A DNA stretch of 64,000 nt, taken from assembly GCA_014695255.1 (NCBI GenBank), contig JACJNX010000061.1, positions 248,001-312,000 of the forward strand, written 5' to 3'. Numbering within the stretch: position 1 is the stretch's first letter; every line of letters begins with the position of its first letter. The position numbers and the translations under genes are program-made. The DNA comes from Cyanobacteria bacterium FACHB-63. Its GTDB lineage: Bacteria; Cyanobacteriota; Cyanobacteriia; Leptolyngbyales; Leptolyngbyaceae. Positions 60,663 through 62,955 of this stretch are shown here, piece after piece. Under the pieces are notes generated by a model that saw only the letters and a program-made list of their open reading frames with translations, did not search any database and had not been told where the DNA came from.

Positions 60663-60738
60663 CGCAGTTTCCTCAATACTGTTCTCATTCACTCTAACGT
60701 TTAGGTTCAAAATGGCTTATGTCTGTAAGGGTATTTTT

Positions 60739-61104
60739 ATGCGGATTCAGAAAGCCTGGGTGACGATCGCGGCGGTGGAGTTCGATCGATCGGTGCAGTT
60801 TTATCGCCATCTATTCCAACAAGAACCAACCCTGTTTACGCCTGCGAAGTATGCGGAGTTTGAGGCGTTTGGGATTCGACTGGGAATTTATCGCCCAACT
60901 ACGGAAGAATCTCCAGAGAAAGCGCCGATTATGTTATTTCCGGCGGTGAGTCTGTGTGTGCAGATTGAGAACTTGGAAAGTGTGATCGCTCATCTCGCTC
61001 AAGTTGAGGCTTTTGTGGGTGAGGTGCGATCGGTTTCTCATGGGCGTGAGGCGTATGCTTACGACCCGGACGGCAATCGCATCATTTTGTATGAGCCGCG
61101 TTAA
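60739..61104 (+). CDS. Glyoxalase/VOC superfamily protein
   Basis: 121 residues from ATG at 60739. One VOC-type beta-alpha-beta-beta-beta unit pair: WVTIAAVEFDRSVQFYRHLF, FEAFGIRLGIYRPTTEE, and AYAYDPDGNRIILYEPR with the typical DPDGN turn. Metal-binding residues are not obvious, so function may be binding rather than catalysis. Divergent from the aldolase gene. Confidence 0.78.
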   Translation: MRIQKAWVTIAAVEFDRSVQFYRHLFQQEPTLFTPAKYAEFEAFGIRLGIYRPTTEESPEKAPIMLFPAVSLCVQIENLESVIAHLAQVEAFVGEVRSVSHGREAYAYDPDGNRIILYEPR

Positions 61105-61146
61105 CGTGAGGTCGGCGAGTTTTTTCGCTCCGATTTGAGCTGATCC

Positions 61147-61646
61147 GCCCCCTAAATCCCCCATTCTGGGGGACTTTGAAAGTGAAACTAACTCCCAATT
61201 TCGGTGATAATCTTTTGCAGAACTCGACTTAAATCTGACATGACTTCTTGATTACGAAATCGCATCACTCGATATCCAAGCTGATTCAACCTCTCTGTCC
61301 GGGCAGCATCATAATCCACTTGTCGATCGTGAATTTCACCATCCAGTTCAACCACCAATCGATGCTGCGGACAATAGAAATCGACAATAAAAGATTCGAC
61401 TGGATGCTGACAGCGAAACCTTACTCCATTGAGTTGGCGCTTGTTGAGTGCTTGCCATAATATCTTTTCAGCAGGTGTAAGATTCTGTCGAAGCTGACGA
61501 GCCGCAGCGGTAGTATTTGGAGTTGTTCCACGAATACGCCGAGAATCCATCAATTTAATCACTCATGAATTCCCCTAAGAGTGCCCCAGTCATCCGAATT
61601 GTTTCCCTCTTTCTCAAAGTCCCCCAGAATGGGGGATTTAGGGGGC
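61147..61646. mobile_element. Putative non-autonomous cassette: 33-bp perfect inverted repeats around a DUF559 gene
   Basis: Left arm 61147-61179 and right arm 61614-61646 are exact complements over 33 bp; each also contains a CCCCCATTCTGGGGG palindrome. Only the DUF559 nuclease gene lies between them. No transposase and no clear target duplication are seen. The arm sequence (CCCCCTAAATCCCCCA type) is a known style of interspersed cyanobacterial repeat. Whether it moves is inference. Confidence 0.6.
61188..61550 (-). CDS. DUF559 family endonuclease-like protein
   Basis: 120 residues from ATG at 61550; a GTG at 61562 adds 4. LTPAEKILWQALNKRQLNGV, then FRCQHPVESFIVDFYCPQHR, LVVELDGEIHD, and YRVMRFRNQEVM. 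The FIVDFYCP...VVELDG pattern is the PD-(D/E)xK-like core of DUF559 (related to Vsr and group I intron nucleases). Intact active site. The gene is flanked on both sides by exact inverted repeats. Confidence 0.9.
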   Translation of the reverse strand: MDSRRIRGTTPNTTAAARQLRQNLTPAEKILWQALNKRQLNGVRFRCQHPVESFIVDFYCPQHRLVVELDGEIHDRQVDYDAARTERLNQLGYRVMRFRNQEVMSDLSRVLQKIITEIGS

Positions 61647-61683
61647 AGAAGCCGCCTGAAACGAAGTAAAAAATCCATCGAAC

Positions 61684-62955
61684 TTACATCCCATTAGATT
61701 CATTCCACAAAGAAACACCCAATCGTCCTGGATTTTTCAACCCTCCTCGCATCGCCAATAGCGCCGTACCATAAGCCGCTTCAGTCTGGTTCGCTTGCAT
61801 CACCGGAACTTTAAGCTGTCTTTGCCGCATTGCTGTCCAAGCCGTATTCTTTGCTCCTCCGCCTGCGGTCAAAACTCGCTTCAGGGGTGTTGCTCCAAAT
61901 GATTCGAGAGATCGATACCCTTGCGCTTCAATTCTTGCCATACTTTCCAGCAATCCATGCAGAAATGCCACCGGATCATCGGGTCGCGGTTCTAGTCGAG
62001 GTGTAAGCATCGGATCATTAATCGGAAATCGATCGCCCGCCTTCAACAATGGATAGTAATCGAGCAGACTTTCTTGATCGGGAATACGATCGCTCAATTC
62101 CCTCAGTTCATCTGTTGTAAAAAAGTGCTGCAAAACTGCACCACCTGTATTAGAAGCGCCACCGACTAACCATCGATTGCCGAATCGATGACTATAAATT
62201 CCAAAGTCAGATCGATCGACCCGAACATCACTCAATAGCTTTAGTACCAATGTTGATCCGAGCGAAGTGACTGCATCTCCACTCTCATTCGCTTGACTCG
62301 CAATGAACGCCGCAATACTATCCGTCGTTCCCGCGCAGATTTGACAAGTGGATGGAATATTAAATCTCTCGGAGATTGCTGCTTGAATCGGTGCGATCGC
62401 ATTTCCCGGTTCAACCACAATGGGCAACAATTCCCGCAACGGCAACCAATCGGGATACTCTAATCGCTCCACATCGTAACCGAGCTTCAAAGCATTGTGA
62501 TAGTCACTGATTCCAAGCTGCCCGTGAAGCTGAAAGGCTAACCAATCTGCTTGATGTAGAAAGTATTGTGCATTAGAAAAGCTTTCATTATTGGCTTGCC
62601 ACCAAAGCAATTTTGCAAGGCTAGAAGTTGCACTGATCACGGTATGTTGAGCAGGCGCAATTGATTTAATCTGCTCTAACACACTTGCACCACGAGCATC
62701 GTCATACATCAAGGGTGCAGTAATCGGAACACCCGCACGATCGCACAATAACACCGTTGAAGACGTGCCATTAATTGCAATCCGATTCAACTGCGATCGT
62801 ACCTCGATCGGCAATGTTTGAAGTAATTGCCATAGCATTTGATCCCAATCTAAAGAAGCGGTAACGGTGGTTTGTGCTGCGATCGCACCTTTGGAATTAA
62901 TTGCGATCGCTCTTGCTCCAGAAGTTCCAAAATCAATTCCTAAAGATAAATTCAT
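61684..62955 (-). CDS. FGGY-family D-ribulose/xylulose kinase (SePSK/XK-1 type)
   Basis: 423 residues, short for FGGY kinases. ATP/phosphate motif LGIDFGTSGARAIAINS, AINGTSSTVLLCDRAG, CAGTTDSIAAFIASQ, LVGGASNTGGAVL and LTAGGGAKNTAWTAMRQRQL. Length and motifs match the cyanobacterial/plant group that includes Synechococcus SePSK and Arabidopsis XK-1, reported to phosphorylate D-ribulose. Unrelated in detail to the gluconokinase-like paralogue at 53989-55461. Confidence 0.85.
   Translation of the reverse strand: MNLSLGIDFGTSGARAIAINSKGAIAAQTTVTASLDWDQMLWQLLQTLPIEVRSQLNRIAINGTSSTVLLCDRAGVPITAPLMYDDARGASVLEQIKSIAPAQHTVISATSSLAKLLWWQANNESFSNAQYFLHQADWLAFQLHGQLGISDYHNALKLGYDVERLEYPDWLPLRELLPIVVEPGNAIAPIQAAISERFNIPSTCQICAGTTDSIAAFIASQANESGDAVTSLGSTLVLKLLSDVRVDRSDFGIYSHRFGNRWLVGGASNTGGAVLQHFFTTDELRELSDRIPDQESLLDYYPLLKAGDRFPINDPMLTPRLEPRPDDPVAFLHGLLESMARIEAQGYRSLESFGATPLKRVLTAGGGAKNTAWTAMRQRQLKVPVMQANQTEAAYGTALLAMRGGLKNPGRLGVSLWNESNGM

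Follow-up and report, generated by a model that had tools for sequence, protein, structure and literature searches.

Cyanobacteria bacterium FACHB-63 carries a DUF559 nuclease gene between two inverted, C-rich hairpin repeats, and this unit is itself nested in a longer shell with the appearance of a miniature inverted-repeat transposable element (MITE). The unit lies in a 64,000-nt stretch of contig JACJNX010000061.1 (hereafter the window), which belongs to genome G000 of our set; G- and L-numbers denote genomes and loci, respectively. The terminal repeat of the shell family is also that of a resident IS982 insertion sequence (IS), and DUF559 genes were found next to C-rich repeats across many cyanobacteria. 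The arrangement is reminiscent of repetitive extragenic palindromic (REP) sequences and their REP-associated tyrosine transposases (RAYTs), and we give an even chance to the reading of a REP/RAYT-like unit in which a Vsr-type nuclease acts on the repeats and the shell is moved in trans by IS982.

The two hairpin arms (GCCCCCTAAATCCCCCATTCTGGGGGACTTTGA) are exact inverted copies of 33 bp each; an inverted-repeat search returned the pair as 36 nt with 97% complementarity and 434 nt between. Only one gene-sized frame with a family match fits between them, and its 124-aa product belongs to DUF559 (PF04480; E 3.3e-41, 140 bits or, more exactly, 139.6, at a cut-off of 20.6). Allowing up to two mismatches, the arm core CCCCCTAAATCCCCC occurs at three sites in the window versus 0.03 expected from 100 shuffles, and its two exact copies are those in the arms; thus, the arms are not due to chance. 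A single DUF559 gene within exact 33-bp inverted arms at 61147-61646 was also what the original prediction, made from the letters of the DNA, had described. It took these coordinates for the whole unit; they delimit the inner part alone, as imperfect outer arms reach to approximately 61104 and 61689 (Table 1). The 33-bp arms were rejected as the termini of the element, since outer arms carrying a terminal repeat were found beyond them.

The terminal repeat ACGTSAGTTCGAC is common to the shell family, the resident IS982 and elements of approximately 200 bp and of 106 bp, and is degenerate in the window copy. With at most one mismatch, the shell end TTAACGTSAGTTCGA was found at 20 places in G000 and at 31 in G006, a genome of the same genus, the reversed control giving one in each. 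Ends of this type flank an IS of approximately 1017 bp with an IS982 transposase (NCBIfam NF033520, E 8.6e-75; Pfam DDE_Tnp_1_3), as well as the approximately 200-bp elements, which contain a hairpin pair and no gene, and the 106-bp elements, which are without the hairpin pair and have a different G + C hairpin at their center. Target duplications of 7 bp were detected in this family: over nine clean pairs with ends at ACGT, 48 of 63 positions agree versus 31.5 after shuffling (reached by 0 of 20,000 shuffles), and over these plus two doubtful pairs, 51 of 77 versus 35.2 (again 0 of 20,000), where the end and length of the duplication were chosen from a scan of 25 combinations and single pairs agree at 3-7 of 7 positions. 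In its terminal repeat and in the family-level 7-bp duplications, the element resembles IS982 elements and their MITEs; like such a MITE, it has terminal repeats shared with IS982 and no transposase, but it differs in its nuclease gene, its inner hairpin pair and its degenerate ends. These observations suggest that the shell was moved in trans by the IS982 transposase in the lineage of the window. The proposal of the original prediction that the unit is mobilised in trans fits the outer shell, whose terminal repeat is that of the resident IS982, and the target duplications that it recommended looking for exist at the level of the shell family, the window copy being less clear (see below).

The association between DUF559 genes and C-rich repeats is not peculiar to the window. 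In 26 of 71 DUF559 loci, arms that face inward lie on either side of the gene, no more than 260 bp off, and another 23 loci have at least one arm in some other arrangement (an arm being counted with at most two mismatches or as the CCCCCTARCCCCC variant); in the 20 best-scoring of the 71, both arms were present in 18 and one arm in two. When any of three types of C-rich repeat was counted around 86 loci, a repeat was present in 141 of the 168 adjoining 200-bp windows versus 46 of 1182 at distances of 600 bp or more, and on both sides in 61 of 82, with the motifs defined after some of the loci had been viewed and windows cut by contig ends omitted. The background rate of windows with such a repeat was 10 of 699 in a 140-kb stretch of G006 and 2 of 319 in our 64,000-nt window. 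In addition, the repeat type follows the nuclease lineage: it changes 15 times on the DUF559 tree versus a shuffled mean of 40.8 (0 of 200 shuffles as low), the tree consisting of 84 rows of the 86 loci (G001 and G084 were not orientable), with many weak forks and with near-copies that help the clustering. The shells around the DUF559 units have different outer ends, as judged by eye. Among 24 non-cyanobacterial DUF559 loci, C-rich direct or inverted repeats were seen by eye in five (L041, L042, L049, L057 and L064), which belong to Bacteroidetes, an armatimonad and Chloroflexi; the remaining loci had none or unlike repeats. The direct C-rich repeats of L041, L042, L049 and L064 (Bacteroidetes, Chloroflexi) look much like the cyanobacterial ones.

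DUF559 units were also found in frame within long genes. Among the matches listed, at least 54 lie in frames of 500 aa or more, and 20 were fetched by hand. In all 20, translated C-rich repeats were seen by eye beside DUF559 inside the long frame, and the DNA motif was present within 300 bp on both sides in 19, L233 having it on one side only. A Pfam scan of seven of the long proteins gave MmeI, Eco57I or type ISP methylase/specificity models over the cut-off for six and DUF1156 for the seventh. In G083, the Type_ISP_C match is split in two, the best stretch beginning at profile position 183 directly behind the DUF559 insert, and nine relatives (43-48% identity) read straight through the junction, where they have four residues. 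Eight related alleles were compared at this codon of the type ISP restriction-modification gene: five contain DUF559 units (G083, G154, G166, G219 and G300), and two (G178 and G316) contain, in frame between CAAGGGGCTTAAGCCCCTTG palindromes, a Y1 (RAYT-like) protein (Pfam E 6.4e-15 and 3.2e-14), the nearest model for that of G178 being the REP-associated NF047646 (E 3.9e-19), at 69 bits and thus below the cut-off of 80. The eighth allele, G196, has neither type of unit; it matches only from the junction onward and shows no DUF559. The same-codon loci in G083, G178 and G316 are L250, L254 and L256. In the long genes of L239 and L246, translated C-rich repeats without DUF559 were also seen by eye, in frame, at places other than the DUF559 unit.

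EDxHD/Vsr proteins have a conserved pattern of acidic and histidine residues. Across 24 DUF559 sequences, E32, E72, D74, H78 and D85 are invariant and D61 is nearly so, the G001 copy having N in its place. The predicted structure (mean pLDDT 84.5; a Foldseek search was also run) is nearest to 3HRL (Z 14.2), followed by the catalytic domain of I-Bth0305I (Z 11.2) and Vsr (Z 9.4), and there is a profile match to the I-Bth0305I catalytic domain (E 9.8e-6). Judged from this modeled catalytic fold and the residues, the protein would be an EDxHD/Vsr-like nuclease. It is under purifying selection, with omega well below 1: pairwise values (NG86 or YN00) were 0.14-0.35 for the four genus copies, 0.08-0.11 for G001-G003 and 0.05-0.26 for other pairs. 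PMC9403480 assigns a DUF559-containing Thermosynechococcus gene to the EDxHD family. The window protein is thus similar in fold and profile match to I-Bth0305I and the EDxHD homing endonucleases; its gene, in contrast, lies between dispersed repeats, and no intron or intein was seen, although no search was aimed at them.

Among eight genus genomes, including G000, five have DUF559 matches. In G006, the cassette is at the same place, with a protein 89% identical and an extra open frame between the cassette and the glyoxalase gene. In G001, the glyoxalase and kinase genes are 2.4 kb apart with no cassette between them, and a DUF559 protein 81% identical is encoded on another contig; G003 has two DUF559 genes, neither of which shares a contig with its kinase or glyoxalase gene. 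From the comparison of G001 and G006, the site is common to two genomes, and the cassette is missing in at least one that keeps both flanking genes. The nuclease-carrying mobile cassette of the original prediction is thus well supported, and the empty site that it recommended seeking was obtained at the gene level in G001; the opposing possibility that it named, of relatives always carrying the gene at this site, does not apply, as two of the eight genomes share the site. The extra frame of G006 (L121:4552-4989, 146 aa) has no Pfam match and is similar to a frame in G001; it is absent at the window locus, perhaps lost via recombination between neighboring hairpin elements.

The hairpin repeat is also found without the gene. 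In the genome of the window (7.23 Mb, 179 contigs), there are 43 occurrences of the core CCCCCTAAATCCCCC when one mismatch is allowed, a count for which the reversed-pattern control is uninformative because the pattern is a mirror, and eight short inverted pairs (82-164 bp) are present besides the window pair. This genome has three DUF559 matches, of which only that of the window is close (139.6 bits versus 26.4 and 24) and only that of the window has the core within the fetched stretch. Arms mostly without a DUF559 gene had been proposed as grounds for abandoning the cassette, and this is indeed the situation, with 43 core sites versus one close DUF559; the test was ill chosen, however, since a MITE or a REP-type system predicts exactly this. 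Among 37 related loci from named genomes, the core was found in eight (L034, L035, L036, L037, L039, L049, L065 and L070), and L038 has variant arms. At the level of the class, the hairpin CCCCCTAAATCCCCC-N4-7-GGGGGACTT was present in 177 of 388 genomes, the reversed control giving 0 throughout, and in 38 of the 45 genomes with a closest-group DUF559 (>120 bits) versus 139 of the other 343, a comparison uncorrected for kinship. Exact inverted pairs 55-85 nt apart were found in 10 of the 388 genomes, seven of which have a close DUF559; G364 has one such pair and a distant DUF559. Within the genus, six of the eight genomes have 4-67 exact inverted pairs. The hairpin tips in G000 and G006 occur as reverse-complement pairs (ATTCT/AGAAT, ACTCGT/ACGAGT), as if the tips invert.

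In G234 and G204, the repeated unit is an entire shell of approximately 0.7 kb with DUF559. Of the six G234 and five G204 matches, five and two, respectively, were aligned; these copies occupy unrelated places and share shells with ends of type CTCAGTRCAGGACAAAA. Where both ends are present (four copies), the 9-bp flanks match at 8, 8, 7 and 6 of 9 positions versus 0-4 when taken one base off, the ends having been set after the flanks were viewed and the right end of one copy lying one base further than in the others. Two of the four are derived by internal deletion and retain DUF559 fragments (530 bp in G204, 327 bp in G234), and a stop codon was found within three of five G234 copies. Among the 15 places with a CTCAGTRCAGGACAAAA-type end, 11 are DUF559 copies or derivatives, and no transposase gene owning this end was seen in the seven places inspected by eye. 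Copy G204a interrupts a Y1 transposase gene, itself decayed, with uninterrupted relatives on cyanobacterial plasmids. A transposase-like open reading frame near copy d was considered as the owner of the G234-type end and rejected, since it belongs to a later insertion (L290:270-1440, inside one G234 DUF559 shell) that has ends of its own, GGGAGCGTGTCACTT, and what looks like an 8-bp duplication. Pfam assigned neither of two versions of the frame (a 110-aa stretch and L290:520-1425) to a family.

The spread of anonymous palindromic repeats is, according to PMC3733652 and PMC3116915, best known for repeats with RAYT transposases; these papers also report REP dimers set in longer palindromes, and RAYTs with REPs on either side. 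The window system resembles these REP/REPIN-RAYT systems (REPtrons) in having inverted pairs of short hairpins in many copies and one or a few repeat-flanked nuclease genes, the dispersed inverted pairs being present in its own genome and in six of the eight genus genomes. It differs in its enzyme, a Vsr-like DUF559 protein without a Y1 match in Pfam or NCBIfam instead of a repeat-flanked HUH Y1 transposase, and in its arms, whose sequence has neither a GTAG nor a CGTC tag at the hairpin foot. Because the enzyme is not of the HUH type and the GTAG tag is missing, the unit is not a member of the REP/RAYT class. A RAYT as a required mobiliser was rejected, as G006 has 145 hairpins yet no Y1 match; it was the exception among 11 genomes searched, the other 10 having one. 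Rickettsia palindromic elements (RPE), mentioned in PMC3733652, are likewise palindromic repeats in frame in genes; here, in contrast, a nuclease gene lies inside the in-frame insert. In Legionella pneumophila, PMC12308824 places DUF559 in a repeated segment reported as a mutation and recombination hotspot; that segment, likened to ours by description only, differs in holding a transposase. No description of a DUF559-hairpin unit or of the arm sequence was found in the open-licence literature searched.

The features of the locus are collected in Table 1, in which the element ends were placed from the 7-bp duplication frame of the shell family. The left end of the element touches the glyoxalase-type stop codon, and its right end supplies the stop codon of the FGGY-type kinase.

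Table 1. Features of the DUF559 element and its neighbors (positions in the window)
Feature	Position	Strand	Remarks
Whole MITE-like element (shell and unit)	~61104..61689	.	Ends ACGTGAGG...ACTTACAT; outer arms can be aligned with other copies' shells
Left shell arm	61104..61146	+	IS982-type terminal repeat, degenerate as ACGTGAGGTCGGC
Left C-rich hairpin arm	61147..61179	+	
DUF559 nuclease gene	61188..61562	-	124 aa, GTG start; E32, D61, E72, D74, H78 and D85 present
Right C-rich hairpin arm	61614..61646	-	
Right shell arm and degenerate terminal repeat	61647..61689	-	Holds the kinase stop codon, 61684-61686
Flanking glyoxalase-family gene	60712..61104	+	Matched in all 8 genus genomes searched
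Flanking FGGY-family kinase gene	61684..62955	-	

We propose the following mechanism for the window unit, a Vsr/EDxHD-type DUF559 gene within an inverted pair of C-rich hairpins that resembles a REP dimer and is itself enclosed by the MITE-like shell. The IS982 transposase would move the shell in trans, and the nuclease would recognize or cut the hairpin repeats; repair or recombination could then carry the gene to other copies of the repeat and maintain the repeat family, with DUF559 in the role ascribed to RAYT transposases in REP systems. An action on the repeats themselves, through cutting and repair, is favored because of the differing shell ends, the in-frame units, the repeat type that tracks the nuclease lineage and the RAYT-like occupant of the same codon. 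The earlier suggestion that the nuclease drives its own spread is plausible. Several observations weigh against our reading. Neither cleavage nor movement was observed. The ends of the window copy are more degenerate than the TTAACGTSAGTTCGA family end, and its flanks (CGCGTTA / CCCATTA) agree at 5 of 7 positions, which is no clear duplication; alignment with G006 did not yield an exact empty site at the DNA level, as the intergenic DNA is too diverged. Neither arm of the window type was found within 260 bp in 22 of the 71 DUF559 loci, the hairpin also occurs in the above 139 of the 343 genomes that lack a close DUF559 (uncorrected for kinship), and G004 has 25 exact pairs with a distant DUF559 only and G007 has 13 with none.

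An alternative hypothesis is that the element is a plain MITE with a passenger, i.e., that transposases of the IS982 type, and elsewhere of other types, mobilise the shells in trans, DUF559 being a neutral or host-beneficial passenger without action on the repeats. The terminal repeat shared with IS982 and the target duplications agree with this, as does the repetition of the whole approximately 0.7-kb shell in G234 and G204, with its CTCAGTRCAGGACAAAA-type ends and 9-bp flank matches. However, it leaves unexplained why DUF559 sits in C-rich repeats under shells with differing ends, why the repeat type tracks the nuclease tree and why the gene occurs in frame; moreover, the seven of 15 places inspected by eye disclosed no transposase with the G234/G204 end, and the Y1 gene beside copy G204a is the gene that this copy interrupted. 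We regard this hypothesis as rather unlikely. Conversely, DUF559 might be a self-sufficient mobiliser of which the short hairpin pairs are internal-deletion derivatives; we judge this distinctly improbable, although the same-ended derivatives with DUF559 fragments (530 bp and 327 bp) and the 11 of 15 G234/G204 end sites occupied by DUF559 copies or derivatives speak for it. The genus of the window contains an IS982 whose ends are those of the window shell family, hairpin pairs are numerous in G004 and G007 despite the lack of a close DUF559 there, and a lone Vsr-type nuclease is not known to transpose DNA. Descent of the short pairs in this genus from the cassette was set aside as weak, their interiors being weakly similar to the cassette ends (2-28 of 200 shuffles reach the similarity). 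Finally, purifying selection and the abundance of hairpins in these genomes would suit a static host gene, a Vsr-like repair nuclease beside common repeats that act as terminators or RNA hairpins. The differing sites, the multi-copy state in G234, the in-frame insertions, the strong local enrichment of the repeats and a position that is not conserved across the genus (two of eight genomes) make this explanation very improbable.

More broadly, we tentatively raise the possibility, ourselves leaning somewhat toward doubt, that DUF559 (Vsr-type) nucleases are dedicated partners of C-rich palindromic repeats in cyanobacteria and some other phyla. They would then form a second, HUH-free REP/RAYT-type system, in which an enzyme with a repair-endonuclease fold cuts hairpins and spreads both the repeats and itself, also in frame. 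DUF559 is classed as a family of unknown function, and its companionship with distinct repeats, type by type, makes it a candidate partner for these repeats and gives it a testable role. The presence of a DUF559 unit or a RAYT-like gene at the same methylase codon provides a natural comparison of the two systems.
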